DNA of 39,815 bases, from contig JADHXD010000030.1 of NCBI GenBank assembly GCA_016783145.1, positions 1 to 39,815 of the forward strand, in the 5' to 3' direction. The notes beneath the pieces were generated by a model. The model ran no database searches and was not told where the DNA came from. It saw only the letters and a program-made list of their open reading frames with translations. Both the position numbers and the translations under genes were made by a program. The stretch comes from Anaerolineae bacterium. Its GTDB lineage: Bacteria; Chloroflexota; Anaerolineae; JAFGEY01. The first letter of the stretch is position 1. Every line of letters starts with the position of its first letter. Positions 13,901 through 38,500 of the stretch are shown piece by piece.

Positions 13901-16195
13901 CTGGACATCGGTCGAGACGAGGTGGACGAGCAGATCCTGTGCCACCTGACAGCACACGGACCTTTGCCCTCCTCTCGCATCGCGGAGTTGGTCGGCCTAC
14001 AGCGAGGCCACGCGCGGGAACGCATCGGGAAGCTGGTCAGCGGGTACAGCCTACTGCGGCTTCCTGGCGCGGAAGGCACCCTATACGCTGCCGCTCAGAC
14101 TTGGATACCGAGTCACATACGGGCAGGGTCTATGTCTCGCGCGGAAGCGCGGCTCCAGCTTGTCCTCAAGTATCTCAAAGGCCACGGGCCGATAACAAAG
14201 TACGAGGTGATGGAGCGATATGGGTTTCCCGATGGACAGGTCGAACGGTTGCTTGCGACCCTGCTCGAGCGTGGAAGAGTGGTCCGGGGTGAGTACGTGC
14301 CCACCAAGTCCCTTCCCCAGTGGTGTGACAGGGGCAATCTCGAGCAGATTCACCGTGCAACACTGAATCGGCTGCGCAGGGAGATGGAGCCCGCAACGCC
14401 CGTCGAGTATGCCGACTTTTTGGTTCGCTGGCAGCACGTGCACCCGGACACACAGCTCTCTGGACTGGATGGCCTGCGACAGGTCATCGGGCAGATCCAG
14501 GCCCAGGAGAACTACCAGATCGTGTACGAGAGGGACGTTCTCCCTACCCGTGTGACAGACTATGACCCCTCGATGCTGGATCGCCTGTGCTATGGTGGAG
14601 AGGTGTTCTGGAGACGCTTTGACTTTAGGAGGCTCAGGCGTGGCTTTATTGGCTTCTGCTTCCGCTCAGACAGGGATTGGGTCGTCACCGATCCCCAGGC
14701 GACCGAGATGACCCTGGACCAGTGGGACGATGACATTCCGGAGGCATGTCTCGCCGTGCGAAGCGATCTCCGGAGCAACGGCGCATGTTTCTTTGATGAC
14801 ATCATCCGGCGGACGCAGCTCGATTGGCGACTTGTCCTGCGAGCCATCTGGCACCTGGTGTGGACCGGGGAGGTGACGAACGACAGCTACGAGTCGATCC
14901 GGCACGCAGACATCGCCAGTGGGCTCTCAGCCTGCTACGATCTGGGCACCAAGCCCGGCCGGAAAGGGGTGACAAACGACTTCATTGTCAGGCACATGCT
15001 GGAACTCTGTCACCTCGATCCTCGCCTGGGCAGGTGGGCTCCTACTGAGAGGCTGCTCCCGACCCCCCTCGATCCTGAAGCGCAGAATGGCGCGGTGCTC
15101 CAGTGGGCGCGGCTGCTCCTCAGACGGCACGGGATAGTCTCTCGAGAGTCGGTCAAGCGAGAATCTGCCGCTCCGCAGTGGAAAGACCTGCGCCGAGCTC
15201 TGATCAGGCTAGAGTTGCTGGGTGAGGTGAGGAGAGGTTTCTTTGTCCAGGAACTCTCTGGAGAGCAGTACGCCTGGCCAGACGCTGTGGAGACCTTGCG
15301 TGAAGCAAAGCTGCGGCATCCAGACCTCGACGGCGAAGACGGGGAGGACGGCAGCGCGGACCCCGCCTCCGAGAAAACGGATGAGCCAATGATCTTGCTG
15401 AATGCCTGCGATCCGGCCAATGTCTTCGGCGCGCTCTTTGCGGCCACGAACCAGGCAGGCGAGCCGGTCCAGTTCGTGCGCGTGCCCCAGAAATACCTGG
15501 TCATTCAGGGCGGGCAGCCGATACTGCTCTACGAAGGGCGGGTCACGCTCTTTCGTGACCTGTCAGGGCCTCGCGTCGAGCAGGCTGTCAAGACGCTGAT
15601 CGCCGCTGTTGACCATCCATCCAAGGTGGCCCCCCATCGAGAGATCCACGTCCAAGACTGGAACGGTCACCCGATCGATGTGAGTCCAGCGCGGCACCTA
15701 CTGACGGTGCTGGGGTTTGTGCAGGCCAGCAGCCGGTGGAAAGGGTTTGTCTACGATGGCGTTCACCGGCCCAGTCTGGAGGCGATCGCGCAGGCCGCAC
15801 ACGACGTGCCCAAGTGGTTCGAGCACGTGGGAAAAGAAACCGCACCAGTGAGGTATGATGGGGAATGGATCATCTCCAGAGCCAGCACGCAGATCCGGGA
15901 CAAGGTGCGGCAGCTCTTGTCGTTCTTGGAGCGCGTTCTCCCCTCGGAGTGCAGGATCACGTACGGGCCACGACAGTTCACGGTTCGCTATCGCGGCTTC
16001 AGGTGCATGAGTCCCTATGTCCAGCAAAAGCAGATTTACTTGCAGATCACCCACAAGGGATGGACGCGCGGCATCCAGATCGGGCCCAATACGGATCTCG
16101 ACGCAGCACAGTTCGCTTCTGCCGTTCTCGAGAGGTTGCAGAAGGTCACGCGACAGATCGACCTGCTGCTGGACGCGGATCAACGCAGGGCCTAG
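10946..16195 (+). CDS. lhr: Giant Lhr-family superfamily 2 helicase
   Basis: A 1749-residue ATP-dependent 3'-5' DNA/RNA-unwinding helicase of the Lhr family. Motifs: SPTGSGKT (63-70), YVSPLKALNNDIQ (98-110), TTPESLFII (161-169), DEIH (188-191), SAT (223-225), LVFANSR (297-303), ASLELGID (355-362) and QRIGRAGH (383-390). The Lhr-specific winged helix and beta-barrel modules follow, then a long C-terminal region of repeated winged helices as in full-length bacterial Lhr (HGIVSRESVKRE, GEVRRGFFVQELSGEQYAWPDAVETL). It is some 200 residues longer than the ~1500-residue form I know. Lhr acts in DNA repair and perhaps RNA metabolism, and its C-terminal region resembles AlkZ-type glycosylase folds. 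TTG start at 10946, overlapping the previous stop by four bases, with GGGAGGAG upstream. No terminator is visible after the stop; the DUF6935-like gene converges. Confidence 0.93.
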   Translation: MTAIPHDVQEECDVRRAPTGPDLGLLFEPYVWAWFKARYGEPSPAQAASWPKIAEGKNTLIFSPTGSGKTLAAFLWCISDLFNVASQQALDDAVYVLYVSPLKALNNDIQKNLVEPLAEIGVCARRAGVRVPDIRSAVRTGDTTSSERASMARRPPHILITTPESLFIILSTPKFRLAFRQVRYVIVDEIHAISNNKRGVHLSLSLERLQHLVGRDFVRIGLSATQRPLEEIARYLVGMESPNTPRGCEIVDTGARKDLDVQVLSPVDNLLEAHFDAIWGSSYDEILTLIKEHDTTLVFANSRYKTERTALRLNELSAGDPVAVGAHHGSMSREVRLDMENKLKRGQLDALIATASLELGIDVGSIDLVCQIQSPKSVSTGMQRIGRAGHLLDATSKGRLLVTDRDDLVESVVLVKAIVDGEIDCTRIPTNCLDVLAQHIVGAVAADNWHVDDLYDLCRRSYCYRDVDRADYVRVLNMLSGDYELDMERAPYPKISWDRVNNVLYPERAARLIAFRSSGTIPEIEDYQVYFEKAKTQVGRLDEGFVERLHTGDVFVLGSSSWRVVGFQRNRVLVEDVYGRAPTVPFWGGDRDSRTYDLGVLVGRFRRHMQARIADGDPIGWLQDTYCVDEKGARAVCEYFREQQLVAGELPSDRLVLIERFRDELGLQQVVIHSPFGIRVNDPWAMALRQAIEEVYGFRPQTATVDDGILITVPTDAETNLASALDGALLDLVTPGSLYGLLERALRGSPIFASRFRHNAVRSLMVLREYRGRRNPVWLQSLRSLALLDACQDDREYPVIVETLRECLHESMDVPNLDRVLRAIESGEIETKVLQSRVPSPFTHSLLLLGQYGDMGAIPTRERRSRLMHLHREILRQILDKETLRNLLDEKAVESLNAQLQRTDPQRKARDANELARLLLDLGDLVDHDDEEISLLDRVDGDAKGMLADLVSAHRAVSVPIPTAETNRQRWISTENYPLYRAAFGLDIGRDEVDEQILCHLTAHGPLPSSRIAELVGLQRGHARERIGKLVSGYSLLRLPGAEGTLYAAAQTWIPSHIRAGSMSRAEARLQLVLKYLKGHGPITKYEVMERYGFPDGQVERLLATLLERGRVVRGEYVPTKSLPQWCDRGNLEQIHRATLNRLRREMEPATPVEYADFLVRWQHVHPDTQLSGLDGLRQVIGQIQAQENYQIVYERDVLPTRVTDYDPSMLDRLCYGGEVFWRRFDFRRLRRGFIGFCFRSDRDWVVTDPQATEMTLDQWDDDIPEACLAVRSDLRSNGACFFDDIIRRTQLDWRLVLRAIWHLVWTGEVTNDSYESIRHADIASGLSACYDLGTKPGRKGVTNDFIVRHMLELCHLDPRLGRWAPTERLLPTPLDPEAQNGAVLQWARLLLRRHGIVSRESVKRESAAPQWKDLRRALIRLELLGEVRRGFFVQELSGEQYAWPDAVETLREAKLRHPDLDGEDGEDGSADPASEKTDEPMILLNACDPANVFGALFAATNQAGEPVQFVRVPQKYLVIQGGQPILLYEGRVTLFRDLSGPRVEQAVKTLIAAVDHPSKVAPHREIHVQDWNGHPIDVSPARHLLTVLGFVQASSRWKGFVYDGVHRPSLEAIAQAAHDVPKWFEHVGKETAPVRYDGEWIISRASTQIRDKVRQLLSFLERVLPSECRITYGPRQFTVRYRGFRCMSPYVQQKQIYLQITHKGWTRGIQIGPNTDLDAAQFASAVLERLQKVTRQIDLLLDADQRRA

Positions 16196-18587: not shown

Positions 18588-19631
18588 TCAGAATCGCCTC
18601 TCCCTCTTTGGGTAGGGCTGGAACGGCGTACGCGGTTCGGTGCTCAGCCAGTCTCCGCTCTTGTCCAGTCGGTGCAGAGAGCGCAACAGGTCCACCGTCA
18701 CCCAGCGACTGGCCTGCGGCCGGGTGCCGTATTCCCACAGCCCGTATGGGCCCTGTGTCCCCATCACAAACGCGACCAGATCCGCCACTCTCTCATCCTC
18801 CAGAGTAGCCCCGACCCGCCAGCACAGATCCAGCACCAACGCCAGGTCAAACCGCGCGTAGAAGGTGAGAAAACCACGTGCAGGCTCTGCCCCGACCAGC
18901 CGAGCGACCTCGAACCCAAGGGATCGTGTCTCGCGTGTTTCCCGTCCAAGCAGCAGGTCAAGCGCACGGCGTGCCTCGGGGCCTTGCTGCCGTGCTGGAT
19001 GCAGCGCCAGACAGACCAGGCTGCCTGTGGTATTGGACCGGCATCCCCATCGCGAGTGCGCCAGGCGGCGATAACCGGCAACATAGCCATAGACACCGGA
19101 GGAGAGCCCGGTTGGCCAGGCGCCATCTGCAAGCCGCTGCCCGAGCAGCCATCGGTAGGCCCGCTCTGCCCGCTGATCCTCTGCATAGCCGCACGCTGCC
19201 AGCGCCCGCAAGGGGATCGCTGTCTGCAAGGGGATCATCGAATACCCCTCGCCATCGTCCCCTGCCTCATCGCTGCCAGGGATCGGCCAGGCGCCGTCCT
19301 CCTCCTGCCGTGAGAAAACGTACTCGGCACCACGCTGCACAGCAGCGTTGCCCGTCCCCAATCCAAGATGCCCCAGCCGCATGAGCGCCAGACAGGTCAC
19401 CCGCAGTGGGCCACCCTGCCAGGTGACGTTGTCCGCCCGCCATGACCCGTCCGGGTCCTGCCGCCTGAGCAGCTCGGCGACAAGCGGATCCTGATCCCGG
19501 AGGGCAAGCAGCTCTTGGACCTCTGGATCGGACTCTGGCCGCTGGAGCAGTTCCCGCAACACGAGTAAGCGCAGGCAAGGAGAAGGGTCTGCCAGCAGCA
19601 GCGGCAGTCGAGCACGGGATACCTGCGTCAC
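18588..19631 (-). CDS. Squalene/prenyl-cyclase-like alpha-alpha barrel protein
   Basis: A 347-residue protein made of paired helices with QW-like repeats: LLRRQDPDGSWRADN, VFSRQEEDGAWPIPG, LLGQRLADGAWPTG and VMGTQGPYGLWEYG. This is the half-barrel of the prenyltransferase/squalene oxidase repeat family. It is about half the length of a full squalene-hopene cyclase and shows no DXDD protonation motif, so an enzymatic cyclase role is doubtful; stand-alone members are common in Chloroflexota with unknown substrates. The GTG start overlaps the tandem UvrA stop (GTGA), indicating tight coupling. No signal peptide. Confidence 0.72.
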   Translation of the reverse strand: MTQVSRARLPLLLADPSPCLRLLVLRELLQRPESDPEVQELLALRDQDPLVAELLRRQDPDGSWRADNVTWQGGPLRVTCLALMRLGHLGLGTGNAAVQRGAEYVFSRQEEDGAWPIPGSDEAGDDGEGYSMIPLQTAIPLRALAACGYAEDQRAERAYRWLLGQRLADGAWPTGLSSGVYGYVAGYRRLAHSRWGCRSNTTGSLVCLALHPARQQGPEARRALDLLLGRETRETRSLGFEVARLVGAEPARGFLTFYARFDLALVLDLCWRVGATLEDERVADLVAFVMGTQGPYGLWEYGTRPQASRWVTVDLLRSLHRLDKSGDWLSTEPRTPFQPYPKRERRF

Positions 19632-22600
19632 CGCGCCGCCTCCAGCAAGCTTCTCAGGTACGGCCCTGTGGGCGTGTCTCCCGCAGCAACCACTTCCGGA
19701 GGGCCTGCTGCGATGACTCGCCCTCCATCCGGTCCACCTCCTGGACCCAATTCAATGAGCCAATCGCACGCTGCGAGCACGTGTGGGTGGTGCTCGATCA
19801 CGATCACCGTGTTTCGTTCAGCCGGGCTCCGCCCTTCCTTGACCAGTCTCTGCATCACGCCTATCAGCCGCGCCACATCCTCCAGGTGTTGGCCCACCGT
19901 TGGCTCGTCCAGGATGTAGAGCGTCTGGGGGGACGTGCGCCTGCACAGCTCTTTGACGATCTTTAGTCGCTGAACTTCACCTCCGGAGAGAGCATATCCC
20001 GGCTGTCGGAGGACCAAGTACCCCAGTCCGACCTCGCGCGCGGTTGCCAGAGGACGGGCAAGCCTGTCCTCATCGCCAAACAGATCGTAGGCCTGGTCTA
20101 GCGTCAGAGAAAAGGCGTCGGGCAGAGCCACTCCCTGCAAGCTGACCTCCCAAGCCTCGGGGCGATATCCCGTGCCACGGCAGGCCTCGCACACGTTGTG
20201 GACCTGCGGCAGGAACCCCATATCGATGCTGATCGAACCGCTGCCACGACAGACCGAGCAGTGCAGTCCCAGCCGATCCGCATCCAGGCCCAACGCTTGT
20301 GCGTCCTCGCCACGAGCATAGAGGGCGTGCAGCGGCCCGCGCAGCGAGAGATAGCTGGCCGGGCTGTGCACGCCTCGCTTGGCTTGATCGACAAGGACCA
20401 CGCGTGCTGGCGCGCCTTCGATCGCCTGGTGCGCTCCGGGCTCGATCTCTTCATAGGCCACCGAGGTTGTCTGCTTCTCGGGCGCCAGTGCCCGCCCCAA
20501 CGTATCGATCAGCAGTGTGCTCTTGCCGGAACCAGACACCCCACACACACCGACCAGCACGCCCAGTGGGAACTGGACGTCTATGCCACAAAGGTTGTTG
20601 GCCCTGGCTCCTCGGACCATCATCCAGTCTTGTGGGTCGCGGCGCGGGCCAATCGCGAGCCGTCTTTCACCGCGCAGCCAGCGAGCCGTCACCGTGTCGG
20701 CGGCTGCGACCTCCTCAGGCGTACCCTGGGCCACGATCTGGCCTCCGGAGACACCCGCTCCCGGCCCCATATCGACAAGATGGTCCGCGGCGCGAATCAC
20801 CTCAGGATCGTGCTCAACCACAATGACCGTGTTCCCCTCGCTGCACAGTTCACCCAGCACCGCCACCAGGGCATCGACCTCAGAGGGATGCAGTCCGCGC
20901 GTCGGTTCGTCCAGCAGCACGGTCAGCGAGGTGAGGCCGCTGCCCAGCAGCCCAGCCAGGGTGATCCTCTGCGCTTCCCCGGCAGAAAAGCTGGCTGCCG
21001 GTCGGTTCAGGTGCAGATATCCCAGGCCTACCCGCAGCAGGAAACGCAGCCGCCTGAGCAGAGTACGCAGGTTTGCCTCCACCAGGGCCGGGACACGATC
21101 CCTCAGACCCTCCAGTACCTGATTCAGGCGCGACAGAGGCATCTCGCTCAAGCCAAGCATCTCAAACCCGTTCAGCGTCACAGACGCATACTCGGCGCGC
21201 AGTCCGGCCCCTTGACAGTCTGGGCATACCAGCGTGTCCGTATACGTCCCACCCACGTCCCAGTCACCGATCCACCCGTAAAAGCCAGGGAACTTGCTCA
21301 CCCTGGTATGTGTACGTCCAGCACGGCTGTGGAAAACCATGCGCATCGACTCAGGATCACCGAACAGAAATGCGTGCTGAGCCTCGGGGGACATCTCGCG
21401 CCACGGTGTGGTCGCCGGGTCAAAGCCGTACCGCTCCCCCAAGGCAAGCACTTCATAGTAGCCGCCGTTGAATGGCTGGCACAGGTAACCCTTGGGGAAA
21501 AACCCTGGCGAGTACATCGCGCCACCGCACAGCGGATCTTCGGGACGAATGATCAGCTTGTCCGGGTTGGGCTTGCGCAGGGTCCCCACGCCATTGCACG
21601 TCAGGCAGGCAGCCGCATAGTGGCTCGGGTTGAAATGTCGAGGCTGAGCCAGTGCTGCGGTCGCCTGGCACTCAGGACAGCGCCACTCGTCAGGGCCGCG
21701 CGTCATCATCGCTCCACATTCCTGGCAGCGCCGCTCGCCGACCCAGGCCATCAATGCCGCCAGGTGATAGGAGAGCTCTGTCACCGTGCCCACGCTGGAA
21801 CGCCGCGCATGCATGCGCCGGCCCGGAATGACGGTGACAGCGACTCCCAGCCCACTCACCGACGCCACAGGCGCTTCTGGGCCTTCCCTGGTGCCTTGCC
21901 GTTCGTATATGGAGAGACTCTCCAGAAACCGCCGCCTGGCCTCGGCCTCCAGCACGTCGGACACCAGGCAGGACTTGCCTGAACCGGATACACCGGTGAC
22001 CACGGTCAGCATCCCTTTTGGAAAGTCGACGTCCACTTCCCGCAGGTTGTGTGCGCGCGCGCCGCGAATAGAGATCTGCGCCTTCTGAGCCATCGGCTCT
22101 CGGGACTGCGCGGCAAGGGGCTGGATCTGAGCCTCTTCACGCAGTGCTTGCCCGGTGATCGAGCCTGCCTCCCGGAGCAGCCCATCCGGCGGCCCTGCGT
22201 ACAACACGTGTCCTCCTGCAGGACCCGCACCGGGACCCAGATCGATCACCCAGTCCGCAGCACGGATGACGTCGGCATTGTGCTCCACAACGATGACCGT
22301 GGCCCCAGTGCGCACAAGGCGGTCCAGCACCTTCAGAAGCCCAGCCACATCTTGTGGGTGCAGTCCTGTCGACGGCTCGTCCAGGATCAACATGCTCTCT
22401 GTCAGGGAGCGCTTCCCGAGGAACTTGGCCAGTTTGACGCGCTGCGCCTCCCCTCCGGAGAGCGTGGGCGAAGGCTGCCCAAGATGGAGATAGCCAAGAC
22501 CGATGTCGACCATAGCCCGCAGAAGCCGCCGTGCAGTCCGCCGGCTCCGATCCGACAGCCTCGCATCCTCTGTCAGCAAAGAGGCAGCCTCTGCGATGCT

Positions 22601-24517
22601 CAGATCGTAGAAATCGGCGATGGAAAGAAGGCGGTCACCATACGCCACTCGCGCGCTGAGCACCTCATCGGAGAATCGCTGTCCCTCGCAATCCGCGCAA
22701 GGGATCCAGGTCGAAGGCAGATAGCGCATCTGCACCTCAACTGCGCCGATCCCCTTACACGTCGGGCAGGCACCTTCCGGACGGTTGAAAGAAAAGTGCG
22801 AGGGAGACAGGTCGGTAGCGGCGGCAAAGCTATCCCGGATGATGTCGGAGAGCTTGGTGTAGGTAGCCGGGTTTGAGCGCGGATTACGGCCGATGGGTGA
22901 CTGGTCGACCATCACAGGCTTGAGCACCTGTCCTTGGACCGCTTGGCAGCCGACCGGCTCACCCGCGACCAGCGAGGCCGCCAACACATCCTCCACGAAC
23001 GTGCTCTTGCCCGACCCGGACACCCCTGTGATCACGGTCAGGCGACCGAGAGGAAGGCGGATATCGACATTCTGCAGATTGCGAAGGCTCGCCCCCCGAA
23101 CCACCAGGAAGCGATCTGCTCTGGGTCGGCCCTGAGGGATCTGTACGCGCTCCCGCAGGCTAAAGTATCGTCCGGTGGCGGTGTTGGCACGCCAGAGCTC
23201 GGCGGGAGTGCCGCCAAACACCACCCGGCCGCCCTGCCTTCCAGCTCCGGGGCCGAGATCGATGGCCCAGTCTGCGGCGGCGGCAGCCACACGATCGTGC
23301 TCGATGTACACGACAGGACCCGGCAGGTCGCGGAAAGCGGGAAGCAATCGGGCCACGTCCGCGGGATGCTGGCCGATCGTGGGCTCATCCAGGATGTGCA
23401 GCAGGTCTTCGAGCCGGCTCGTTAGTGCAACGGCCAGTCGAACGCGCTGCGATTCGCCGCGTGACAGTGTCGGCGAGGGCCGGTTCAGAGAGACGTACCC
23501 CAGGCCCACGCGATCCAGGGCGTCGAGCCGGCGTCCGATCTCGCTCAGCAGGCGTGTGGCTGTCGCGGGGAGACCAGTGTCTGCAAAGAGAGTGCGCGCA
23601 TCCTCTACTGGCTGCGCCAACAGCTCCGGCAGACGCAGCCCACCCCAGCGGACAGACGCTGCCTGTGGATGCAGGCCCGTCTCGCCACACTCAGCGCAGC
23701 CGGCGCCGCCACAGCGCGGACACGGAGTGTGAAAATGTACGGGTTCGAGATCCCCAAACCAGGCCCCACAGGCCGCGCAGACCGGTGCGCGGGAGAGGGT
23801 TTGCTCCTCCCCATCGTCGCGCCGCAGGGCAACCGCGCTCGCGCCAAGAGACCACGCCGCGCGTACCGTCTCCCGGATCTGGCCCACCGGTCGCGCGCCT
23901 GCCAGATGCGCGAGCTCAACCTCCAGATCGTGCTTCGCGGTCGGGTCCAGAGGATCGCCACGCCAGGTCTGTCCGTTCACGCGCAGCCGCGCCAAGCCAA
24001 ACTCCCGAGCCAGCAATTCGAGCAGCGACCGGTGGCTGCCCTGAGCACCGCAGAGCAGGGGAGCGCAGATCACCAGGCCGCCCTGCTCGGCCCAGGCGGC
24101 CGCTCGCTCAACGATCTCATCCTCGGTGAATACGGACAGCCGCTTCCCACAGCGTGAGCAGCGCCTCTCCCCAAAGCGCGCGTAGAGCAAGCGCAAGAAG
24201 GGATGCAGGCCCGAAGCCGTTGCCAGCGTCGAGGCGGGGTTGCGGTTGAGCAGGTTTTGACCTACGGCCACCGCTGGCCCGAGACCCACGATCGAGTCCA
24301 CCTTGGCCGGGGAGAGCCGCAGGCTGCTGGAGCCAACGGCAAAGATCTCCAGGAAACGTCGACGCGCTTCTTGATACAGCGTGTCAAAGACGAGGGATGT
24401 CTTGCCCGATCCGGAAACACCTGTGACGACGGTCAGGCCATCGCCAAACTTGACATCGATCCCCTGCAAGTTGTGCTCGCGGGCACCCTGGATCTGGATT
24501 CTCACTTGGACGCTCAC
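19628..24517 (-). CDS. Tandem (double-length) UvrA-like ABC ATPase with four nucleotide-binding domains
   Basis: A 1629-residue chain made of two consecutive UvrA protomers (about 1-800 and 811-1629), where UvrA is normally ~950 residues and dimeric. Four Walker A motifs GVSGSGK lie near 33, 498, 842 and 1326; four signature motifs at 351 (LSRGESQR), 686 (LSGGEAQR), 1177 (FSAGEAQR) and 1510 (LSGGEVQR); four Walker B DEP motifs at 377, 713, 1203 and 1537. The canonical DNA-contact zinc modules are present in both halves (Cys584/587/607/610 and 1420/1423/1443/1446). Half one keeps a region like the UvrB-binding domain (128-240) but lacks the insertion domain; half two shows the reverse. UvrA finds DNA lesions for excision repair; double and UvrB-less paralogues have been tied to tolerance of DNA-binding drugs. 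GTG start; 15 bases after the GNAT gene. Confidence 0.93.
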   Translation of the reverse strand: MSVQVRIQIQGAREHNLQGIDVKFGDGLTVVTGVSGSGKTSLVFDTLYQEARRRFLEIFAVGSSSLRLSPAKVDSIVGLGPAVAVGQNLLNRNPASTLATASGLHPFLRLLYARFGERRCSRCGKRLSVFTEDEIVERAAAWAEQGGLVICAPLLCGAQGSHRSLLELLAREFGLARLRVNGQTWRGDPLDPTAKHDLEVELAHLAGARPVGQIRETVRAAWSLGASAVALRRDDGEEQTLSRAPVCAACGAWFGDLEPVHFHTPCPRCGGAGCAECGETGLHPQAASVRWGGLRLPELLAQPVEDARTLFADTGLPATATRLLSEIGRRLDALDRVGLGYVSLNRPSPTLSRGESQRVRLAVALTSRLEDLLHILDEPTIGQHPADVARLLPAFRDLPGPVVYIEHDRVAAAAADWAIDLGPGAGRQGGRVVFGGTPAELWRANTATGRYFSLRERVQIPQGRPRADRFLVVRGASLRNLQNVDIRLPLGRLTVITGVSGSGKSTFVEDVLAASLVAGEPVGCQAVQGQVLKPVMVDQSPIGRNPRSNPATYTKLSDIIRDSFAAATDLSPSHFSFNRPEGACPTCKGIGAVEVQMRYLPSTWIPCADCEGQRFSDEVLSARVAYGDRLLSIADFYDLSIAEAASLLTEDARLSDRSRRTARRLLRAMVDIGLGYLHLGQPSPTLSGGEAQRVKLAKFLGKRSLTESMLILDEPSTGLHPQDVAGLLKVLDRLVRTGATVIVVEHNADVIRAADWVIDLGPGAGPAGGHVLYAGPPDGLLREAGSITGQALREEAQIQPLAAQSREPMAQKAQISIRGARAHNLREVDVDFPKGMLTVVTGVSGSGKSCLVSDVLEAEARRRFLESLSIYERQGTREGPEAPVASVSGLGVAVTVIPGRRMHARRSSVGTVTELSYHLAALMAWVGERRCQECGAMMTRGPDEWRCPECQATAALAQPRHFNPSHYAAACLTCNGVGTLRKPNPDKLIIRPEDPLCGGAMYSPGFFPKGYLCQPFNGGYYEVLALGERYGFDPATTPWREMSPEAQHAFLFGDPESMRMVFHSRAGRTHTRVSKFPGFYGWIGDWDVGGTYTDTLVCPDCQGAGLRAEYASVTLNGFEMLGLSEMPLSRLNQVLEGLRDRVPALVEANLRTLLRRLRFLLRVGLGYLHLNRPAASFSAGEAQRITLAGLLGSGLTSLTVLLDEPTRGLHPSEVDALVAVLGELCSEGNTVIVVEHDPEVIRAADHLVDMGPGAGVSGGQIVAQGTPEEVAAADTVTARWLRGERRLAIGPRRDPQDWMMVRGARANNLCGIDVQFPLGVLVGVCGVSGSGKSTLLIDTLGRALAPEKQTTSVAYEEIEPGAHQAIEGAPARVVLVDQAKRGVHSPASYLSLRGPLHALYARGEDAQALGLDADRLGLHCSVCRGSGSISIDMGFLPQVHNVCEACRGTGYRPEAWEVSLQGVALPDAFSLTLDQAYDLFGDEDRLARPLATAREVGLGYLVLRQPGYALSGGEVQRLKIVKELCRRTSPQTLYILDEPTVGQHLEDVARLIGVMQRLVKEGRSPAERNTVIVIEHHPHVLAACDWLIELGPGGGPDGGRVIAAGPPEVVAAGDTPTGPYLRSLLEAAR

Positions 24518-25197: not shown

Positions 25198-25247
25198 TGC
25201 AAAAAGGCCTGGATTCCCAGAGCCTCGCACGGGGAGTCCAGGCCTTT
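25198..25247 (-). terminator. Intrinsic terminator after the four-repeat membrane protein gene
   Basis: The arms at 25203-25218 and 25232-25247 pair over 16 positions with a single G-U, around a 13-base loop. On the minus strand the stem is followed by TTTTT. It lies 33 bases after the stop at 25281. The A-run/T-run symmetry would also let it work weakly on the plus strand. Confidence 0.88.
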
Positions 25248-25280
25248 CCTGATGGGCAGGCAGAGGGCGCGGCTGAGCCT

Positions 25281-26066
25281 CTACTCCCGGGCAGCCTGCG
25301 CTGCGGAGGTGTGCCGGAGCAAGCTCCATCCCAGCAGGAGCACCCCAACAAAGATAAGGGTCCCCGGACCCAGCAGTTTAACCAGCCACATCCATCTCAA
25401 GATCATCTTCCCGGACGTGATGGCAGTCATCCCGACGACCCCGAGCCCCGCCAGGCCGCACAGGATAAAGCCGGGCAGCAGAAGCCCATTCCGCCTCTTC
25501 CTGGCGCCGATGACCAGCAGTGCAAGCCCGACGGCGAGGGGTTCGACGGTCCACAACACGGCCCACGCGTTCCACAGGCCAGTCACGGCGCAGAACTGAA
25601 GCACAGCGCCGTTCAGGCCGAGGACAGCGGCCGGGATCAGCAGCCAGATCGCACGCATATGAACCGCGGCCAGGACAAAGCCAGTGGCCAGAGACAGGAC
25701 CTCCAGCGGCCAGAGCCACCGCCAGGCACCCCACCAGTCCAGGACGCTGGCAAAGAGCAGGATGCCCCCGGTGGTCAGGACCGGCATGCCGGGGATCAGC
25801 AGCCCACCCAATCCGCGACGGTCACGGTACAGGAAGGGCGGCAGCACAAAGCACAGTCCAGCGCAGACCACGAGCAGAGGCCACCACCTCCAGATCGCGA
25901 ATACGCCCCATACGCTCACCCCAAACATGGGCAGGACAAAGGTCACTGCCATCGAAAAGGCACCCCACAGGATCAGCGCCGTACCCACCAGGATGCTCGC
26001 CCGCTTGTCCACGTTGTCGTCCCTCCCTCCAGAGATGCGTCCCATCGAACTCGATAGTCCAAGCAT
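25281..26066 (-). CDS. Four-repeat polytopic membrane protein sharing its module with the neighbouring kinase
   Basis: A 261-residue membrane protein from ATG 26066 (GAGGAG six bases upstream). I see about four copies of a ~50-residue unit, at about 26-75, 89-135, 142-187 and 196-245. Each follows the pattern L-I/L-P-G, a helix, a W-x-x-W turn, an LWPLE-type motif and a second helix (RWLWPLEVLSL, AVLWTVEPLAVG, RWMWLVKLLGPG). Residues 140-175 match residues 424-459 of the adjacent kinase at 22 of 36 positions. No catalytic motif and no signal peptide. It may be a membrane partner or paralogous sensor of the kinase. Followed by a strong terminator. Confidence 0.75.
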   Translation of the reverse strand: MLGLSSSMGRISGGRDDNVDKRASILVGTALILWGAFSMAVTFVLPMFGVSVWGVFAIWRWWPLLVVCAGLCFVLPPFLYRDRRGLGGLLIPGMPVLTTGGILLFASVLDWWGAWRWLWPLEVLSLATGFVLAAVHMRAIWLLIPAAVLGLNGAVLQFCAVTGLWNAWAVLWTVEPLAVGLALLVIGARKRRNGLLLPGFILCGLAGLGVVGMTAITSGKMILRWMWLVKLLGPGTLIFVGVLLLGWSLLRHTSAAQAARE

Positions 26067-26187
26067 AGCATACTCCTCGCTGTGCTGCCTATTCACTGGC
26101 TATCGGGAGACCATCGAAGCCACATCAATTCGGCGCCGAGCCCAGTGAGTAGCCACAGCCCACGTGCCACTCGCCACGCCGTACGGT

Positions 26188-27729
26188 TCAGCCAAACACG
26201 GACCTCGCCAGAGACGCAAGGATAACCAGGAGACACCAGATAGCAGACATCAGACCGATGACGCAACCGAGTGGACGGCTCACCTGGCGGGACAGGGCCC
26301 TTCGTCTTGCCAGCCAGATCGTCAGCCAGATGGACCCCGGCACGAGAAGCAGCTCGAGCGGCCACAGGTATGCCCAGTGGTGCCAGTTGCCGGTCACGGC
26401 ACAGTACGCGAATATCACGCCGTTTCCCAGCAAGATAGCGGCTGGGATCAGCAGCCAGATAGAGGATGTGGCGTAAAGGATCACGCCCAGCCCCATGCTG
26501 ACGGCAAGCATCTCGGTTGGCCACCCTCGCTTCAAGATCCCCCACCGGCCGCTTATGCCACCCAGCCACACCATCGCCAGGTTGCAGATAATCACCAATA
26601 CCACCGCAGCGACGACCGAACTCCCGGTGTTCAGCGCTGGCCAGGTCAGCCGTGGCTGGGGTGGGGTCTCCGGATGGTCGGGAGGTTTCCCCTCGTCTGC
26701 CGCTCGATGCTCCGCTGCCAGAAGCCGAGCTGGTATGGCGTCCGTGTCATCTCCGGCAAGACGTGGGTCCGAGAACTTGGCCCTGTCCGCTCCGGACAAG
26801 ACAGCAACCGAACCCGGTCCTGAACTGCGCGTCGCATCATCTACATCCAGCCAGGGCGGTCGGGAGACGTGCGCCGGCAGCTCTATCCCTGCCTCATCTA
26901 CTGCCTGACGCAGTGCCAGGCTCATTTCTTCTGCGCCTTGATAGCGATCCTCCGGGCGCTTTGCCACGCATTTGGCAACGAGCCTTTCGACAGCGGCAGG
27001 AATAGTTGGGTTGACCTCTCTGGGCAAGGGCAAAGGATCGTGCAGATGCTTCATCAGGACCGCCAGCGGGGTGTCCGCATCAAAGGGAGTGCTCTGGGTA
27101 AGCATTTCATAGAACACGATGCCCAGCGAGTAGATATCGCTGCGCGGATCGCACCGCCCCTCCAGTCCCTGCTCCGGCGCGATGTAGTTCAGTGTACCCA
27201 TCAAGGCGCCGGCGACAGTGTGACGGGTGCCGCCGATGATTTGAGCGATGCCAAAGTCAACCAGGACGGCCTGACCGCGCTTGGTGAGCATGATGTTGGC
27301 TGGCTTGATATCGCGGTGGATCATCCCCTCTCCGTGTGCATAGCCTAGCCCGTCGAGGACGTCGAGCACGATGCGTGCGACATCCCCGAGCGGCATATGC
27401 TCGTCGCGAGCCCGGTAGCTGTTCAGACGTGCCCTGAGCGTATCGCCCTCGAGAAGTTCGGTCACCATGTAGAAGGTGCCTTCCCACACGTCAAAGTCAA
27501 AGACCCGGATGATGCTTGCGTGACATAGTCCAGCGACTGCCTTTGCCTCGCGCTGGAAACGGGCCAGGAACTCGTCTTCTTCCGCCAGATCGGGACGCAG
27601 CACCTTGATCGCTACGTACCGATCTAGCTGCGGATGGTATGCTCGATATACCTGAGCCATTCCCCCACGACCTAGAGGCTCCAGCACCTGGTACCTGCCG
27701 AGTTCCTTGCCCTGCAATGAAGCAAGCAT
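26188..27729 (-). CDS. Membrane-anchored Hanks-type Ser/Thr protein kinase
   Basis: A 513-residue kinase from ATG 27729. The catalytic domain (about 13-275) has the glycine loop GRGGMAQV (20-27), the ATP lysine in VAIKVL (Lys42), HRDIKPAN (138-145), DFG (158-160), activation segment GTLNYIAPEQ and SDIYSLG, so all key residues are present. A proline/acid-rich juxtamembrane linker runs to about 365, followed by about five transmembrane helices (370-510) and no extracellular PASTA or other binding domain. The membrane part carries two copies of the W-W/LWPLE repeat found in the next gene. Upstream in-frame start codons at 27834 add a non-conserved basic stretch and are not preferred. Sits between an FHA/winged-helix regulator and its membrane paralogue; these three likely form one signalling unit (inference). 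Confidence 0.92.
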   Translation of the reverse strand: MLASLQGKELGRYQVLEPLGRGGMAQVYRAYHPQLDRYVAIKVLRPDLAEEDEFLARFQREAKAVAGLCHASIIRVFDFDVWEGTFYMVTELLEGDTLRARLNSYRARDEHMPLGDVARIVLDVLDGLGYAHGEGMIHRDIKPANIMLTKRGQAVLVDFGIAQIIGGTRHTVAGALMGTLNYIAPEQGLEGRCDPRSDIYSLGIVFYEMLTQSTPFDADTPLAVLMKHLHDPLPLPREVNPTIPAAVERLVAKCVAKRPEDRYQGAEEMSLALRQAVDEAGIELPAHVSRPPWLDVDDATRSSGPGSVAVLSGADRAKFSDPRLAGDDTDAIPARLLAAEHRAADEGKPPDHPETPPQPRLTWPALNTGSSVVAAVVLVIICNLAMVWLGGISGRWGILKRGWPTEMLAVSMGLGVILYATSSIWLLIPAAILLGNGVIFAYCAVTGNWHHWAYLWPLELLLVPGSIWLTIWLARRRALSRQVSRPLGCVIGLMSAIWCLLVILASLARSVFG

Positions 27730-27926: not shown

Positions 27927-28541
27927 CTAGCCGCGGGACAGAAGCTTGTAGCCCAATCCCCGCATGGTCAGCAGGAGTTGAGGGCTGGCGGGATCGAGCT
28001 CCAGCTTGGCGCGCAGGCGGCGCACCAGGTTCTCCACCTGGTAGTCATAGACGCTGTCGCTGTACTCGGGCCAAACAGCCGAGCCGATGTCGTCCTTTGA
28101 GCACACCTGTCCGCGGTTTGCGTGAAGGTGAGCGAGCAGTGCGACCTCTTTTGATGAGAGGGCGACCACGCGCCGGTCCACGCGCACAACGCCAGCGGCC
28201 ACATCCACCTCAAGATCGGGAAAAGGGGTATCACGGAAGGTAATGTCGGGGTCGTGAAAGACCAGCGTGACGTCGCCCACGGTGATCCGATCCTGGTCGC
28301 GCAGTTCCACGGGGGTCAGGATTCGCTCGTCGTTGAGGTAGGTGCCGTTTGTACTATCCAGGTCCTCCAGGATCACACGCCACCCCTCCCGACGCACGCG
28401 GGCGTGTTCGCGGGAAACGCGCTTGCTGGTGACCACGATGTCGCTTTCGAGCGCGCGACCCATGATCACAGTATCGCCGGTCAAAAGATGCTCTCGCCCC
28501 GTCGGATCGGTCAGAAAGGGGGCGGGCTCAGTTTGGGCCAT
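27927..28541 (-). CDS. FHA domain / OmpR-type winged-helix transcriptional regulator
   Basis: A 204-residue protein from ATG 28541 (GGAGG six bases upstream). Residues 12-98 are a forkhead-associated domain with the phosphothreonine-binding core: GR (28-29), SREH (43-46) and STNGT (63-67). Residues 108-203 are a transcriptional-regulator winged helix (LSSKEVALLAHLHANRGQVCSKDDI, YDYQVENLVRRLRAKLE, LLTMRGLGYKL) as in OmpR/PhoB, but with no receiver domain. It should bind DNA and be controlled by binding a phosphorylated threonine, either on itself (the linker has Thr101 and Thr105) or on a partner. The adjacent Ser/Thr kinase is the obvious source. Own promoter at 28582-28610. Confidence 0.9.
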   Translation of the reverse strand: MAQTEPAPFLTDPTGREHLLTGDTVIMGRALESDIVVTSKRVSREHARVRREGWRVILEDLDSTNGTYLNDERILTPVELRDQDRITVGDVTLVFHDPDITFRDTPFPDLEVDVAAGVVRVDRRVVALSSKEVALLAHLHANRGQVCSKDDIGSAVWPEYSDSVYDYQVENLVRRLRAKLELDPASPQLLLTMRGLGYKLLSRG

Positions 28542-28581: not shown

Positions 28582-28610
28582 AGTCTACACCGGCCATCCA
28601 ACTGTGTCAA
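28582..28610 (-). promoter_or_regulatory. SigmaA-type promoter of the FHA regulator (and perhaps the kinase)
   Basis: On the minus strand TTGACA (28605-28610), a 17-base spacer, then TAGACT (28582-28587), about 40 bases before the ATG at 28541. It separates the signalling genes from the DNA-repair run upstream. Confidence 0.7.
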
Positions 28611-32060: not shown

Positions 32061-35000
32061 TCACGACGCACCATCGATTCGATGGACGTGTACTTGCCCG
32101 GCATAGTTGAGCAAACACAGCACTGCCTGAACGCGCTGATCCAGAAGCCGCTCCGCCGCCGCGACGTAGCGTCGCGATTGGGCCACATAGTCCTGATCTG
32201 CGAGCAGCCTTGACAGATCTGCCGGATCCCTCACCGCATCGGTCTTGAATTCCACGATCGTCCACACTCCCTGTCGCTGATAGAGCGCATCGATGATCCC
32301 GTTCTCCAGGCGTCCCTCCATCTGTAGGCTGTAGGGTACCTCGTGCAACCGCCGATCCGCTGCGACCATCTCAAAGCAGAGCGGATGGACGTGAAAGCGC
32401 GTCAGAAGCGCCTCGCTCTGACGGACAGCATCGGCAAGCTGGCGAGGATCGGTCAGACCGTATCCCCGGGCCCGCGCGCGGGCCCAGCGCTCAAAACCGC
32501 CGCGCTGGGTAGACTGCTCAGTGGGGAAACGCCAGGCTGCGAGCGCCTCGTGCACCACGGAGCCGACTACCCATGCAGGCGCTCTGGGTCGCCTGACAGC
32601 CGGCACCACTCGCCACACGCGTTGTGGCGGGGGCCGCTCCTGATCGGAGACCTTTTGGTCCACAAGCTCCACCTCCAAAGCCACAGGCTCCAGCAGAGCA
32701 GGAGGAAGCTGAACCATCGGCTTCTCTTTCGCCAAAGCCGGCGCATCCGCCTGGCCTTGGGCAGACCTCACCCATTCGGGCTCATAGATCGCACAGGAGA
32801 CCGGCGTTGAGCCTATGCATCCATTCAGGCGGTTGACCCCTGCCCCTTCGTTGTGGTACTCGAGCCCGGGGCAGCCCAGATCCAGGCCCCCATCATCCAC
32901 GAGCTTCCCTAGCCATCTCCCCAGTTGGCCCGGTCGACCGTCCTGCCTGAGGCGAATGTACCCGCTCAAGATCAGTTTCTCCCGAGCCCGAGTTGCCGCC
33001 ACATAGAAGAGCCGGTCTTGCTCGGCGGCGTCCTGATCGCTGTCACGCGCCTGACCTACCCTGTAGATCGCCGACGCTGCGCGCCGCTGGCCTCCATGCA
33101 GCGAATCATCCGCCTTCAGCGGCGGTAGGATGCCCAACTGGGGATCGATCAGCACGGAGCTTCGGCTCCCGCTGCCATAGGTCAAATCGCCTATGACCAC
33201 CACGGGGAACTCTAGCCCTTTGGCTGCGTGGATGCTCATGATCTGCAGCGCGCCCTCCGCAGTAGTGCGCGCTTCTCCCTCGTGCGCCCCACCTGTGCGT
33301 AGCCTGCGCACGTAGTCTAGGAACTCGCCAACGCTCACGATGCCACTGGCATTGGCATCGGCCAGGAGCTTTCTCACATTGCGCGCGCCTCGTGACTGCC
33401 CTGCCTGGATCAGCGCAGCGCAGTAGTCGGTCTCATCCAGGAATGCCTTCAACAGGGAGGCCACCGAGATACGCCCAGCTTGCTGTTGCATGTGCTCGAC
33501 GATGGAGACCGCCCGCGCGATCCGCGGCTGTTCCTCCTCTGGCCAAGTGCCGATATCCGCCCAACGCAGGATGCTCCATAGGGAGGTGCCAGTCTTCGCT
33601 GTGTCGCGATGTCGGCAGATCTGATAGAGTGTCGCATCCGAGAGCCCCAAGGCTGGCGATCGCAGTAGCCCAACCAAAGCTACATCGTCTGTGGGATCGG
33701 CGAACACCTGCAGGGCGTTCAGCAGGTCGCGGATCTCCGGTCGGCCGTAGAATCCACGTCCAGCCACGGTCAGGAAAGGTACGCCGGCCTTCTCCAGCGC
33801 ATCTTCGTAGGCGGCAAAGGACGAGGACGCGCGACACAGAATGGCGATGTCCCCGTACTCTAGAGGGCGGGCTTGCCCATCTACTACGACCTGGACCTCC
33901 TTCGCCCCTACCATGGACTCGATCCGCGCCGCAAGGGCGTCCGCTGCGCGCACGAGGGCTCCGCCCGTCTTGGACCCGACGGTCAGGTGCATCTCGATGT
34001 GAGGAGCCACAAAGCCCGGACCAGGGTCCTCGCGATGATGCAGCAGAGGCGCAAAGGGTTCCAGCCAGGGCCGATCTAGGTCTTGTTCCTCCCCCAGCAC
34101 GGGACGCAAGAGATCGTTCAGTCCCGCGATCAGATCACGGTGAGCGCGATACGAGGTCGCCAACTGTGAGTCGGTCCCGCCTTCTCGCGCGATCCGGCTT
34201 CGCTCGCTCCGGAACACGGCCACGTCGGCGCCCCGGAAACGATAGATCGACTGCTTGGCATCGCCGACGATGAACAGCTTTCCGCCATCCCCGTTCAGCA
34301 ACCTGACCAGGTCTCGTTGCCGGCTATTCGTGTCCTGGAACTCGTCCACCAGGATCGCCCGGACCTCTTGCTGCCACCTGGTCTGTACTGAGCGATCGCG
34401 TTCCAGCAAGGCGAGCGCGCTGTGCTCCAGGTCATCAAAGTCCTGGACCTGAAGCCTCTGCTTCAGCCGAACATAGGCCGCTGTGCCCTGCCTGAAAAGC
34501 CGACACAGTGCGGGTGTCGCGTCTGCCAGCCGCATATCCAGGGATAGATCGATCCCGTCACCCACAAGATCGCTCAGGCTCGCATCGTACAAGACCTGCA
34601 GTTCCTTGATGGCCACCTTGGGTTCGGCCGGCTTCCAGTTCCTGGCCTGACCCACCTGCTTCATTTCGCTGCGCAGGGCAGCCAGCCGCCGAGAGACTGC
34701 CGCTGTGTCATCGACCCGGAGAGCGGCCTCGATTTCATTCCAGAGAGCGAGCAAGCGGCGCAGTGGACCAGCCAGACGGTCTCCTGCAGCCTCCGCGCGG
34801 TCGATCGCTCCCTCGGCTCGAAGCTCCAGCAACTCAGCAAACCGCGCTCGAACTGCCTTGTGGCCCACAAAGCTCAGGATGGGAGCGACCAGGACCGGTC
34901 TCCACACGGGCCACGGCTGCTCAGGTACCTGCGAAAGGCATTGGGCAACCTCCAGCCGCCGCCGCATGAGCTCTTCGAGGACCTGTCTCAGGACGACTTC

Positions 35001-35519
35001 TCCCAGGAGGGCAAAGAGCTGGACCGCCCCAGCATCTTCTGCAGCCCAGGATATCGCTTCATCGATCGCCTGGTTGCGGAGGACGGTGGCCTGTCCCTCA
35101 TCAAGGACCTCAAAGTGTGGGTCCAGCCCAGCCTCCGCCGGATGGGCACGGAGCATCTCTGCGCACAAACTGTGGATCGTGCCGATACGCGCTGCATCTA
35201 GCTTGCCGTACAGATCCTGCCACCTCTGCCGTTCGCTCACCTGAAGGTCGGCCCGCTCCAGATAGCGGCGGATCTCATCGCGCACCCGGTTCCGCATCTC
35301 TCGGGCAGCCTTGTGCGTGAACGTGATCGCAACAACAGACCGCAGAGGCAGGCCTTCCGCCAGCAGCGACAGGTATCGCGCCACCAGTGTCCGTGTCTTG
35401 CCCGTCCCCGCACCGGCGGTCACCACGACATCCTGCCCTCTCTGCAGGATAGCCGGCCACTGCTCAGCACTGGGAGACATCTGCACGACGATCGGATGGG
35501 GACTTGTTGGGCGCGTCAC
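32061..35519 (-). CDS. addA: AddA-type ATP-dependent helicase/nuclease subunit A
   Basis: A 1152-residue UvrD/RecB-like superfamily 1 helicase with C-terminal nuclease. Helicase motifs: TAGAGTGKT (34-42), AITFTHKAAREM, LVDEFQDTNSRQRDL, GDAKQSIYRFRGAD, MSIHAAKGLEFPVV and FYVAATRAREKLIL. The PD-(D/E)XK nuclease is at the C-terminus: GIIDALY (Asp1077) and EFKTD (Glu1090, Lys1092). With AddB it resects double-strand DNA ends to load RecA, stopping at Chi-like sites. GTG start three bases after addB with GGAGGG ahead of it. Somewhat shorter than B. subtilis AddA (~1230) but complete. Confidence 0.93.
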   Translation of the reverse strand: MTRPTSPHPIVVQMSPSAEQWPAILQRGQDVVVTAGAGTGKTRTLVARYLSLLAEGLPLRSVVAITFTHKAAREMRNRVRDEIRRYLERADLQVSERQRWQDLYGKLDAARIGTIHSLCAEMLRAHPAEAGLDPHFEVLDEGQATVLRNQAIDEAISWAAEDAGAVQLFALLGEVVLRQVLEELMRRRLEVAQCLSQVPEQPWPVWRPVLVAPILSFVGHKAVRARFAELLELRAEGAIDRAEAAGDRLAGPLRRLLALWNEIEAALRVDDTAAVSRRLAALRSEMKQVGQARNWKPAEPKVAIKELQVLYDASLSDLVGDGIDLSLDMRLADATPALCRLFRQGTAAYVRLKQRLQVQDFDDLEHSALALLERDRSVQTRWQQEVRAILVDEFQDTNSRQRDLVRLLNGDGGKLFIVGDAKQSIYRFRGADVAVFRSERSRIAREGGTDSQLATSYRAHRDLIAGLNDLLRPVLGEEQDLDRPWLEPFAPLLHHREDPGPGFVAPHIEMHLTVGSKTGGALVRAADALAARIESMVGAKEVQVVVDGQARPLEYGDIAILCRASSSFAAYEDALEKAGVPFLTVAGRGFYGRPEIRDLLNALQVFADPTDDVALVGLLRSPALGLSDATLYQICRHRDTAKTGTSLWSILRWADIGTWPEEEQPRIARAVSIVEHMQQQAGRISVASLLKAFLDETDYCAALIQAGQSRGARNVRKLLADANASGIVSVGEFLDYVRRLRTGGAHEGEARTTAEGALQIMSIHAAKGLEFPVVVIGDLTYGSGSRSSVLIDPQLGILPPLKADDSLHGGQRRAASAIYRVGQARDSDQDAAEQDRLFYVAATRAREKLILSGYIRLRQDGRPGQLGRWLGKLVDDGGLDLGCPGLEYHNEGAGVNRLNGCIGSTPVSCAIYEPEWVRSAQGQADAPALAKEKPMVQLPPALLEPVALEVELVDQKVSDQERPPPQRVWRVVPAVRRPRAPAWVVGSVVHEALAAWRFPTEQSTQRGGFERWARARARGYGLTDPRQLADAVRQSEALLTRFHVHPLCFEMVAADRRLHEVPYSLQMEGRLENGIIDALYQRQGVWTIVEFKTDAVRDPADLSRLLADQDYVAQSRRYVAAAERLLDQRVQAVLCLLNYAGQVHVHRIDGAS

Positions 35520-35522
35520 GGT

Positions 35523-38500
35523 CTACCCTCCATAGCCAGACCGGTATTGCCAACAGAAGCCTGCGGCAGGGCAGTAGCCAGGACAGCCGCTCTCAGGGAC
35601 AGAAGGTATGAAACGCCCGGCGCGTGCTCCGCACACAGCCTGCAGGGCACTGTCCTTTGCAGTCTCCATCGCTCCCGCTGCTCCGCCGTCGAACGTGCTG
35701 AGCCTGAAGGAGCTCGCCTCAGCGTGGCGCACGTGCCAGTAGAATCCGTCCTCGGGTTCCCCTAGCTCCAGCGCGTCTCGAGCCGCCAAGGCATAGAGTG
35801 GCAGTTGCAGCTTCTTTCCCTGTGCCACCTGCTGAGCGGTGTAGGCGGAGGGGCTGCTGGTCTTATAGTCGATGATCCGCAGGCGACCATCTGGCTTTCG
35901 ATCGATTCGGTCGATCAGACCACGAAGGCGGAACTGCTGATCTCGGTGGCTCACGAGCAGAGGAGCCGCACCCCTGAGGCCGAAGATTGCCTCGTACTGA
36001 TGAGGAACAAAGTCACCTTGTTCGCCCGCCAGTGCTTGCAGCGAGCGACTCACGTTGTGGGTGATCTCGGCGCGCGTCTGCGCCCACCATGCGGTCTCCC
36101 TGAACCCTTCCTGCTGTGGTGCGCCGTCGAGGATCTGTTCGGACACAGACGGCAGCGCTGCCAGAAGCTGCTCCACGTCGGCAGGGTCGCGCACAGCAGC
36201 CGACTGGTACACCTCTTCTAGAATGCGATGGTAGATGTTGCCCAATTGGCGTGAAGCCAACCCCTCGACAGGCTCCTCCCGCGATTCCAGGCCCAGCGCA
36301 TGCTGGATGAAAAACAGAAAAGGACAAGTCTGGTAGCTTTCCAGGCGACTGGGACTCCAAACATGATCGGGGCCGAATCGACACGCAAGGGCATCCGCCA
36401 CATCGCTCAGGTCTCCATCGTAGACACTTCCCGGGGCGCGTTCCTGGCGCTGCAGCAGGACCCGAGTCGCCAGGTCCAGGGCGAGCCGGCGGAATGGATT
36501 GGCCTGATCGGCCCACTCGCAGACGGTGTCAAAGCCGGGGTGGACGGCCAGGCTTTCCATCAACTCAGGCCAGGAAGAGGCATACGTGGGGTCGGGAACA
36601 CTCTCTCCACTCAACCTCACCGGACGTGCATCCACCAGCCTCCTTACTTCCTCCCAGAACGGCGATGCCTGCCACAGAGCACCATTGTCCGCCAGTCGGG
36701 GACGCGTGAGAAGCAAGCGCTCTGAGGGACGGGTGATCGCCTCGTAAAAGAACTCGGCTTCTGCACTCTCGACTGAGGGCTCCAGCCTCAGCCCGAATTC
36801 CTCGCGGAGGCGTTGCCGGTCGGCATCGCGTAGGAAGGCATCTTCTCTCAGCGTCGCTGGGAACTCTCCCTCCGCCATGCCAAGTACCGCGACTGCCCGG
36901 AAGGACACCCCGCGGGCGCCGGCCACTTCGACCACGGCAATCTCGTCCCTGTCCGCACGGACCGGCATGCGATACGTCGAGGCGTCAACCGCGCCGACCA
37001 GCTCCCCAAAGAAGCGCGCATAGTCCGCGGCGGGCGTCCCCAGTGCCTCTTCGGCCCAGACCAGGCCGCGCAAGCCATCCTTGAGGGCTCGGAGTGCAGC
37101 CAGGTCGCGCTGCTCAACCTCTCCTCCAGCGCTCCTGACTCGATCCACGATGCGCAGGGATGTGGTCTCTGCGTCTCCATCCGCACGAGCCAGCAGGCGT
37201 GAGTGCCCCAGTCCCACGTCAGAGCCGATGAGGGTCTCCAACCAGCGAACAAAGTCTCGATGGGCGCACTCACCCGATGGTGGCACCAGTCTGCGCACAA
37301 AGCGGTGGAACATCCCCCGAAGACGCTCTGCCTCGGACCCCACGAGCACGCCCTCTGCCGGGCCTCGTTCTTCATCGTACGCAGCGCTGGATCTGTGCCC
37401 AGGCTCCGGTCCGGCCTCCCCCTGACCTGCGTCCCCCTGGTCAGGGGCGCACGTGTCACGGAATGCCTCCTCCCACTGGGCCATTCCGCCGATGACCCGG
37501 CCTGCACGAGCCAGTGCATCCAGCCTATCCGCGTCCTCTGGCACGATGCCGATAGGCTCTGCGGCTCCCTCGTCAGGCAGGGCCGACCAGTCAAAGTAAG
37601 GGGACCGCCAGGCCTCGATCACCAGCCGGCGAGGCAGGGATGGCGATGGATCATCCTCTGCGCCTGGCAGTGCGAGCCGCAGCAGGTCCAGGATGGACGC
37701 GACCGCCGGGTTGCTTCGCAGGGGCAAGCCGTCGACCAAGCGCAGGGGCAGACCGAACTCGGCAGCAGTCTGTACGATGAAAGGGCGATAGGGCGTGATA
37801 GAACGAGCAAGAAGAGCCACCTCGCCAGGGCGCATCTCATCCAGTACGAGGCGGGCCTTCAGCCATCGCAGTGCAGCGCGCACCTCTCCTGCTCGGTCGG
37901 GCGCTTCGATCAGTTCGACAGAGGTTCCCGCTTCGACGCGGGATGCGGCGCTGTTGAGGAGGTTTACCTCCAGATGAGCCAGCGCGGGAGCACGGAAAGA
38001 CGTTCGTTCTGGCAGAGGGGCTGCCCGCACCCTCAGAACGCGCTCCAGTTCTACACGTGTGTTGGAGAAGCGCCTGTGGACCAGCGGTCTCTCACTGCCG
38101 CCGCCATCGCCCGTCGCGGTGACGATCACTTCCCCCACACGGCAGGCCAAGACCTGCAGCAACGCCAACTGCACCGGTGTGTAGTCGCCGAACCCGTCCA
38201 CAACCAGGAGCGGCCACTGGCGCCCGACGTCCAATGCCCGCTCCGTCAGTGACTCTACTGCGAGCCATCCCATTCCTGCCCGGTCAGCCCAACCCTGCGC
38301 CTGAACGCGGCCCTGGTAGGTCTGATACAGCCACGCCAACTCCTGCAGTCGAGGTTCGCCTCCCATACTGCGCACGGCATCAGCAAAGACTTCTGGCCAG
38401 ACGCGTGCAGCTTTCAGCTCACCGATCAGTCGCTGCAGCACCTGGACAAAGCCAGGGCGGTCGGTGAGCGGTGCATAGTGTACCAGCGCCAGGTCCCCCA

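Follow-up and report, generated by a model that had tools for sequence, protein, structure and literature searches.

A Ser/Thr kinase and a small LiaF-like protein of Anaerolineae share a membrane hairpin repeat and may belong to a Lia-like signalling unit

To our knowledge, the inputs of bacterial membrane Ser/Thr kinases are mostly unknown, and few of these kinases have a dedicated transcription factor. Here the question is what could serve as input to one such kinase, encoded in a window (the whole stretch of DNA analysed) of 39,815 nucleotides from an Anaerolineae bacterium. The kinase gene (26188-27729, minus strand; 513 aa) is next to a gene for a small membrane protein (25281-26066, minus strand; 261 aa). 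An earlier note on this DNA had claimed that the two proteins share a membrane repeat and that the repeat is the likely input of the kinase. Elsewhere, the window encodes an Lhr-type large helicase-related protein of 1749 aa (10946-16195, plus strand) and a UvrA-like protein of 1629 aa (19628-24517, minus strand), ~1.7x the usual UvrA length, apparently two fused UvrA-type halves with several ABC-type ATPase segments. An AddA-like (UvrD helicase) gene adjoins an AddB-like (PD-(D/E)XK) gene at 32061-38783 (minus strand).

We found that the kinase is intact and ends in the membrane. Its catalytic domain (residues 13-264; 26938-27693, minus strand; PF00069, 3.3e-48) has all the catalytic residues, which are invariant, as are T168 and T171 of the activation loop. 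The domain is most like the PASTA kinase group (340 bits against NF033483, for which the cut-off is 450), and the protein had no match to PASTA repeats. The transmembrane region (residues 368-512; pLDDT ~90) reaches the C-terminus and there is no extracytoplasmic domain. That is, the kinase has no extracellular sensor, as the earlier note had said, and the membrane region is the only candidate input region. This region consists of two hairpins, unit 1 (residues 371-422; 26464-26619, minus strand) and unit 2 (residues 424-477; 26299-26460, minus strand; identified by alignment and profile-profile comparison), plus one extra helix. In the predicted structure, residues 368-512 form paired helices with Trp-bearing turns, as in the small protein, and W403 and W449 are invariant in 23/23 kinases.

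The small protein is made of the same repeat unit, a hairpin of two helices whose outer tip is rich in Trp. It has eight predicted transmembrane helices, that is four hairpins, and no soluble domain; in the predicted structure (mean pLDDT 84) the helices are paired and joined by a short turn that bears Trp. In 35 of 36 orthologues Lys and Arg lie inside; Trp is almost confined to the outer hairpin tips (mean 7.8 vs 0.3). Residues W62-P63, W115, W119-P120, W165, W168 and W172 are invariant in the 36 orthologues. The W-x-x-W and LWPLE signatures described earlier are thus real, with invariant Trp and Pro positions in these orthologues and in the 23 kinases.

We compared the units by profile-profile alignment. 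Unit 1 (residues 18-84; 25815-26015, minus strand) is the unit nearest to LiaF-TM (95.5% to LiaF-TM half 1; reversed control 1.5%). Unit 2 (residues 85-137; 25656-25814, minus strand) matched unit 3 at 97.8% and kinase units 1 and 2 at 95.8% and 97.8%; kinase unit 1 matched units 2 and 3 at 95-96%. Unit 3 (residues 138-192; 25491-25655, minus strand) is nearest to the kinase copy, matching kinase unit 2 at 99.0%. The two kinase units matched each other at 94.8%, and units 1 and 2 of the small protein matched each other at 72%. Reversed controls of the unit 2-unit 3, unit 3-kinase unit 2, kinase unit 1-kinase unit 2 and unit 1-unit 2 comparisons were all below 1%. Unit 4 (residues 193-255; 25302-25490, minus strand) is divergent: it is a hairpin in the predicted structure, and its profile match to LiaF-TM half 2 is weak (44%). 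The repeat counts proposed earlier, about four and about two, therefore stand as three mutually similar hairpins plus a divergent one in the small protein, and two plus one helix in the kinase.

The similarity between the two proteins exceeds that of controls that keep composition and hydropathy. By direct count, 22 of 36 residues are identical between small-protein residues 140-175 and kinase residues 424-459, in agreement with the earlier count, and the ungapped match spans 68 residues (112-179 of the small protein, 396-463 of the kinase). The local alignment score was 176, and the maximum of 1000 shuffles, done within 5-residue windows so as to keep the hydropathy pattern, was 153 (z 6.7). 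The internal repeat of the small protein scored 96 at a spacing of 53 (shuffle maximum 70, n=200). The internal repeat of the kinase was not significant from the single sequence (p ~0.03-0.07). At the level of families, the kinase membrane region matched the small-protein family over its whole length (hhalign, 99.3%, E 5e-20; reversed control <= 0.1%).

The locus has a third component that was missing from the earlier two-gene picture. Directly upstream of the kinase gene, and on the same strand, is a gene for a transcription factor with an FHA domain and an OmpR-type winged helix (FHA-wHTH; 27927-28541, minus strand; 204 aa; FHA 6.5e-21, Trans_reg_C 1.4e-17). Its best PDB match is EmbR. The FHA site is intact: the phosphothreonine-reader residues (G-R, S-x-x-H, N-G, N) are all present, and R29, S43, H46, N65 and N70 are invariant in 21/21 proteins.

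The three genes occur together. The order FHA-wHTH, kinase, small protein, on one strand, was found in 33 loci (counting the window), one of them in a chromosome-level genome (CP070811.1, L088). Where the host is named, it is an uncultured Anaerolineae or another Chloroflexota bin. Kinase orthologues are present in 25 of 396 genomes of the class. Orthologues of the small protein are present in 24 of these 25 and in no other of the 396; one genome (G293) has kept the kinase without the small protein. The partnership pointed out in the earlier note is thus conserved. We also searched the 396 genomes with a profile of the repeat for fusions to other proteins, as the note had suggested. Among the matches listed, the fusions were the kinases of this module and one fusion of a paralogue to Toastrack; the rest were standalone proteins. 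In 301 genomes of the phylum outside the class, the profile found weak paralogues only. A search of the plasmid collection gave no match.

Spacing within the set varies. The intergenic gaps have medians of ~160 and ~140 nt. Members are separated by other genes in roughly one in four of the loci checked; these include genes for Toastrack, FtsX/MacB-type permease, ABC ATPase and STAS proteins. MacB/FtsX-type permease insertions are found at L042 7926-11066 (with an ABC ATPase) and L041 7432-10251 (with a STAS protein). In the window, a sigma70-like promoter, TTGACA-N17-TAGACT (28582-28610, minus strand), precedes the FHA gene, and about ten relatives are similar upstream. A TTGACA-N17-GTAGACT-like site before the FHA gene recurs across distant genomes (the window, L037, L040, L042, L044, L045, L049, L055, L106, L108 and L109). 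An intrinsic-terminator-like hairpin with a T tract (25202-25249, minus strand; -33.1 kcal/mol, z -3.3) follows the small-protein gene. We found no promoter-like sites between the three genes of the window. Looking upstream of the FHA gene for an operator made of direct repeats gave nothing consistent. We think it probable that the three genes act as a single signalling unit.

What kind of domain is the hairpin? The small protein of the window had no Pfam or NCBIfam match in a single-sequence scan and is below the curated Pfam cut-off for LiaI-LiaF-TM (PF18917 / PF22570); in a search of its own genome it reached 13.7 bits against PF18917, at unit 1. Of 24 orthologues, 14 matched PF18917 (LiaI-LiaF-like_TM1) and 5 matched PF22570 (LiaF-TM), and no other family was found below E 0.2. 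These matches are weak, up to 24.6 bits (curated cut-off 27) among the matches listed. A PDB sequence search with the small-protein family profile found nothing, and a fold search of the small protein against the PDB gave no match better than E 0.75. We then compared the small-protein family to LiaF-TM of Chloroflexota, using an alignment of proteins drawn by PF22570, mostly from other classes of the phylum. The match was 95.3% (hhalign, E 6e-9; reversed controls <= 0.1%). The halves of LiaF-TM also repeat each other (95.2% by profile-profile comparison), and the repeated two-helix hairpins typical of LiaI-LiaF-TM are present in the small protein according to predicted structure and topology. 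The direct match of the kinase membrane region to LiaF-TM was only 3% (P 0.005), and the region is therefore placed by way of the small protein. Based on these profile comparisons, the hairpin unit is a divergent branch of the LiaI-LiaF-TM superfamily, which has already been described as an envelope-stress sensory domain (PMC11237479). The C-terminal Toastrack (DUF2154-type) domain of LiaF is absent; the small protein ends at its eighth helix and a short tail.

Toastrack is the usual partner of LiaI-LiaF-TM (PMC11237479), and in 8 loci (L038, L039, L040, L043, L044, L047, L061 and L103) a Toastrack (DUF2807) gene is part of the cluster or adjoins it (E 1e-45, with DUF4097 matches as well). In other Chloroflexota genomes, a LiaF-like Toastrack gene comes right after a standalone paralogue of the small protein (L170-L173 and L177). 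Toastrack is lacking from the locus in the window, and DUF2807 from its genome. This genome also encodes an ordinary LiaF-like protein of 305 aa (G000:C82 37080-37997; L180 4079-4996). Genome G389 has a second small-protein orthologue at L038 4436-6056, with a Toastrack gene after it; that contig lacks a kinase gene. At L039 2501-3295, L061 4437-5225 and L103 3927-4715, the Toastrack gene lies between the genes for the FHA factor and the kinase. The Toastrack proteins of L039 and L061 have a lipobox-like N-terminus; a location outside the cell would not match the intracellular one that PMC11237479 proposes for Toastrack.

We looked for a site in the kinase that the FHA domain could recognize. 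The linker between the catalytic domain and the membrane region (~296-359) is predicted to be disordered and is poorly conserved apart from a few positions. Among these are S312 and T329, which are invariant in 23/23 and in 28/28 kinases (partly overlapping sets). T329 (codon 26743-26745, minus strand) is part of an acidic FA..DTD motif, and the segment has pLDDT < 50. With an FHA partner encoded alongside, the invariance of T329 within this disordered, acidic motif makes the residue a candidate for docking of the FHA domain, once phosphorylated. The linker may instead be a mere spacer, with T329 conserved for another reason.

The three-gene set resembles Lia systems (PMC11237479) in several ways. 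The hairpins are akin by profile, a membrane accessory gene is beside genes for a membrane kinase and a winged-helix/HTH regulator, and Toastrack and ABC genes are in or beside some clusters. In contrast to Lia systems, the kinase is a Ser/Thr kinase and not a histidine kinase, the regulator is an FHA-wHTH protein and not a receiver-domain protein, and the small protein has eight transmembrane helices and no Toastrack, with hairpins inside the kinase as well. A LiaFSR-type histidine kinase and response regulator are not encoded alongside, the neighbours being the Hanks-type kinase and FHA-wHTH. Two defining features of LiaFSR fail here, and the set is therefore not a LiaFSR member. A LiaI-LiaF-TM-type segment on a kinase, with an adjoining HTH regulator, is also described from actinobacteria (PMC11237479), but there it is a histidine kinase that is fused to PspC as well and the regulator is REC-HTH; the set here pairs a Hanks-type kinase, which lacks PspC, with FHA-wHTH.

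The output side resembles PknH-EmbR of Mycobacterium tuberculosis (PMC4601284), in which a membrane Ser/Thr kinase is also paired with a factor that has FHA and an OmpR-type winged helix. EmbR has the order wHTH-BTAD-FHA, whereas the order here is FHA-wHTH without BTAD, and PknH has an extracellular sensor domain that is lacking in this kinase. Like PknB and StkP (PASTA kinases), the kinase has a long juxtamembrane linker in addition to a similar kinase domain. Docking of an FHA protein on such a linker is known for PknB: the phosphorylated juxtamembrane segment binds FhaA, as cited in PMC12077195. Unlike PknB and StkP, the kinase here has no PASTA and has a polytopic membrane region rather than a single helix.

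The reading that we favour is a Lia-like system of three components, with the Ser/Thr kinase and FHA-wHTH taking the place of histidine kinase and response regulator, and the LiaF-like protein as a restraint. We consider it probable. In a healthy envelope, the small protein and the kinase would associate through their homologous hairpins. LiaF inhibits LiaRS (PMC7191749), and from this we infer that the LiaF-like protein would keep the kinase inactive. Disturbance of the envelope or membrane would be sensed at the Trp-rich tips and release the kinase, which would autophosphorylate on its activation loop and on juxtamembrane T329. Phospho-T329 would recruit the FHA domain of the winged-helix factor, and the factor would then be phosphorylated or otherwise switched, altering transcription of its target genes, as EmbR does with PknH. 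The full version, that is an envelope-stress system in which both the histidine kinase and the response regulator have been completely replaced, with both the pairing of homologous LiaF-type hairpins and docking of FHA-wHTH on a phosphorylated juxtamembrane Thr, we put forward more tentatively.

It is also possible that the pathway is the same but that the LiaF-like protein acts positively, as a co-sensor or an assembly platform that clusters and thereby activates the kinases under stress. Anatomy and synteny fit either sign of regulation, and four hairpins in the small protein vs two in the kinase is what a scaffold could have. However, LiaF, the best-studied relative of the hairpin unit, is an inhibitor, and we regard an activating role as unlikely. 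We give slightly less credence to the notion that the kinase hairpins are a mere anchor duplicated from the neighbour, with two proteins that do not interact and a small protein that has a separate function in the envelope. The genome with a kinase alone, the L038 contig with a small protein alone beside a Toastrack gene, and the other genes that intervene in several loci are consistent with it. An anchor, however, would not require the invariant Trp and Pro pattern or co-retention in all but one of the genomes with the kinase, and the order kept in 33 loci speaks for joint function. Both regions are hydrophobic and Trp-rich, and the kinase repeat was not significant on its own, but we reject chance or general hydrophobicity in unrelated proteins, since shuffles that preserve local hydropathy never attained the observed score and reversed profiles gave almost nothing where the true ones gave 99.3% and 95.3%.

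By profile the hairpin belongs to a known sensor family, an outcome that the earlier note had named as refuting, and to that extent the earlier statement that no such sensor had been described does not hold. It may still hold for the fusion: a LiaF-type hairpin joined to a Ser/Thr kinase with FHA-wHTH output was absent from the literature searched, which covered few subscription papers. In a 2024 survey of PSP and Lia envelope-stress systems, the outputs of LiaI-LiaF-TM are two-component systems and HAAS-PadR, and the words 'serine' and 'FHA' are absent from its text (PMC11237479). The three-gene unit offers candidates for an input (the LiaF-type hairpins), an inhibitor, a phospho-docking site (T329) and an output. 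If the proposal is true, a Ser/Thr kinase with FHA-wHTH would be an added type of output for LiaI-LiaF-TM. It also offers a testable rule, that homologous membrane repeats may serve in recognition between partners.
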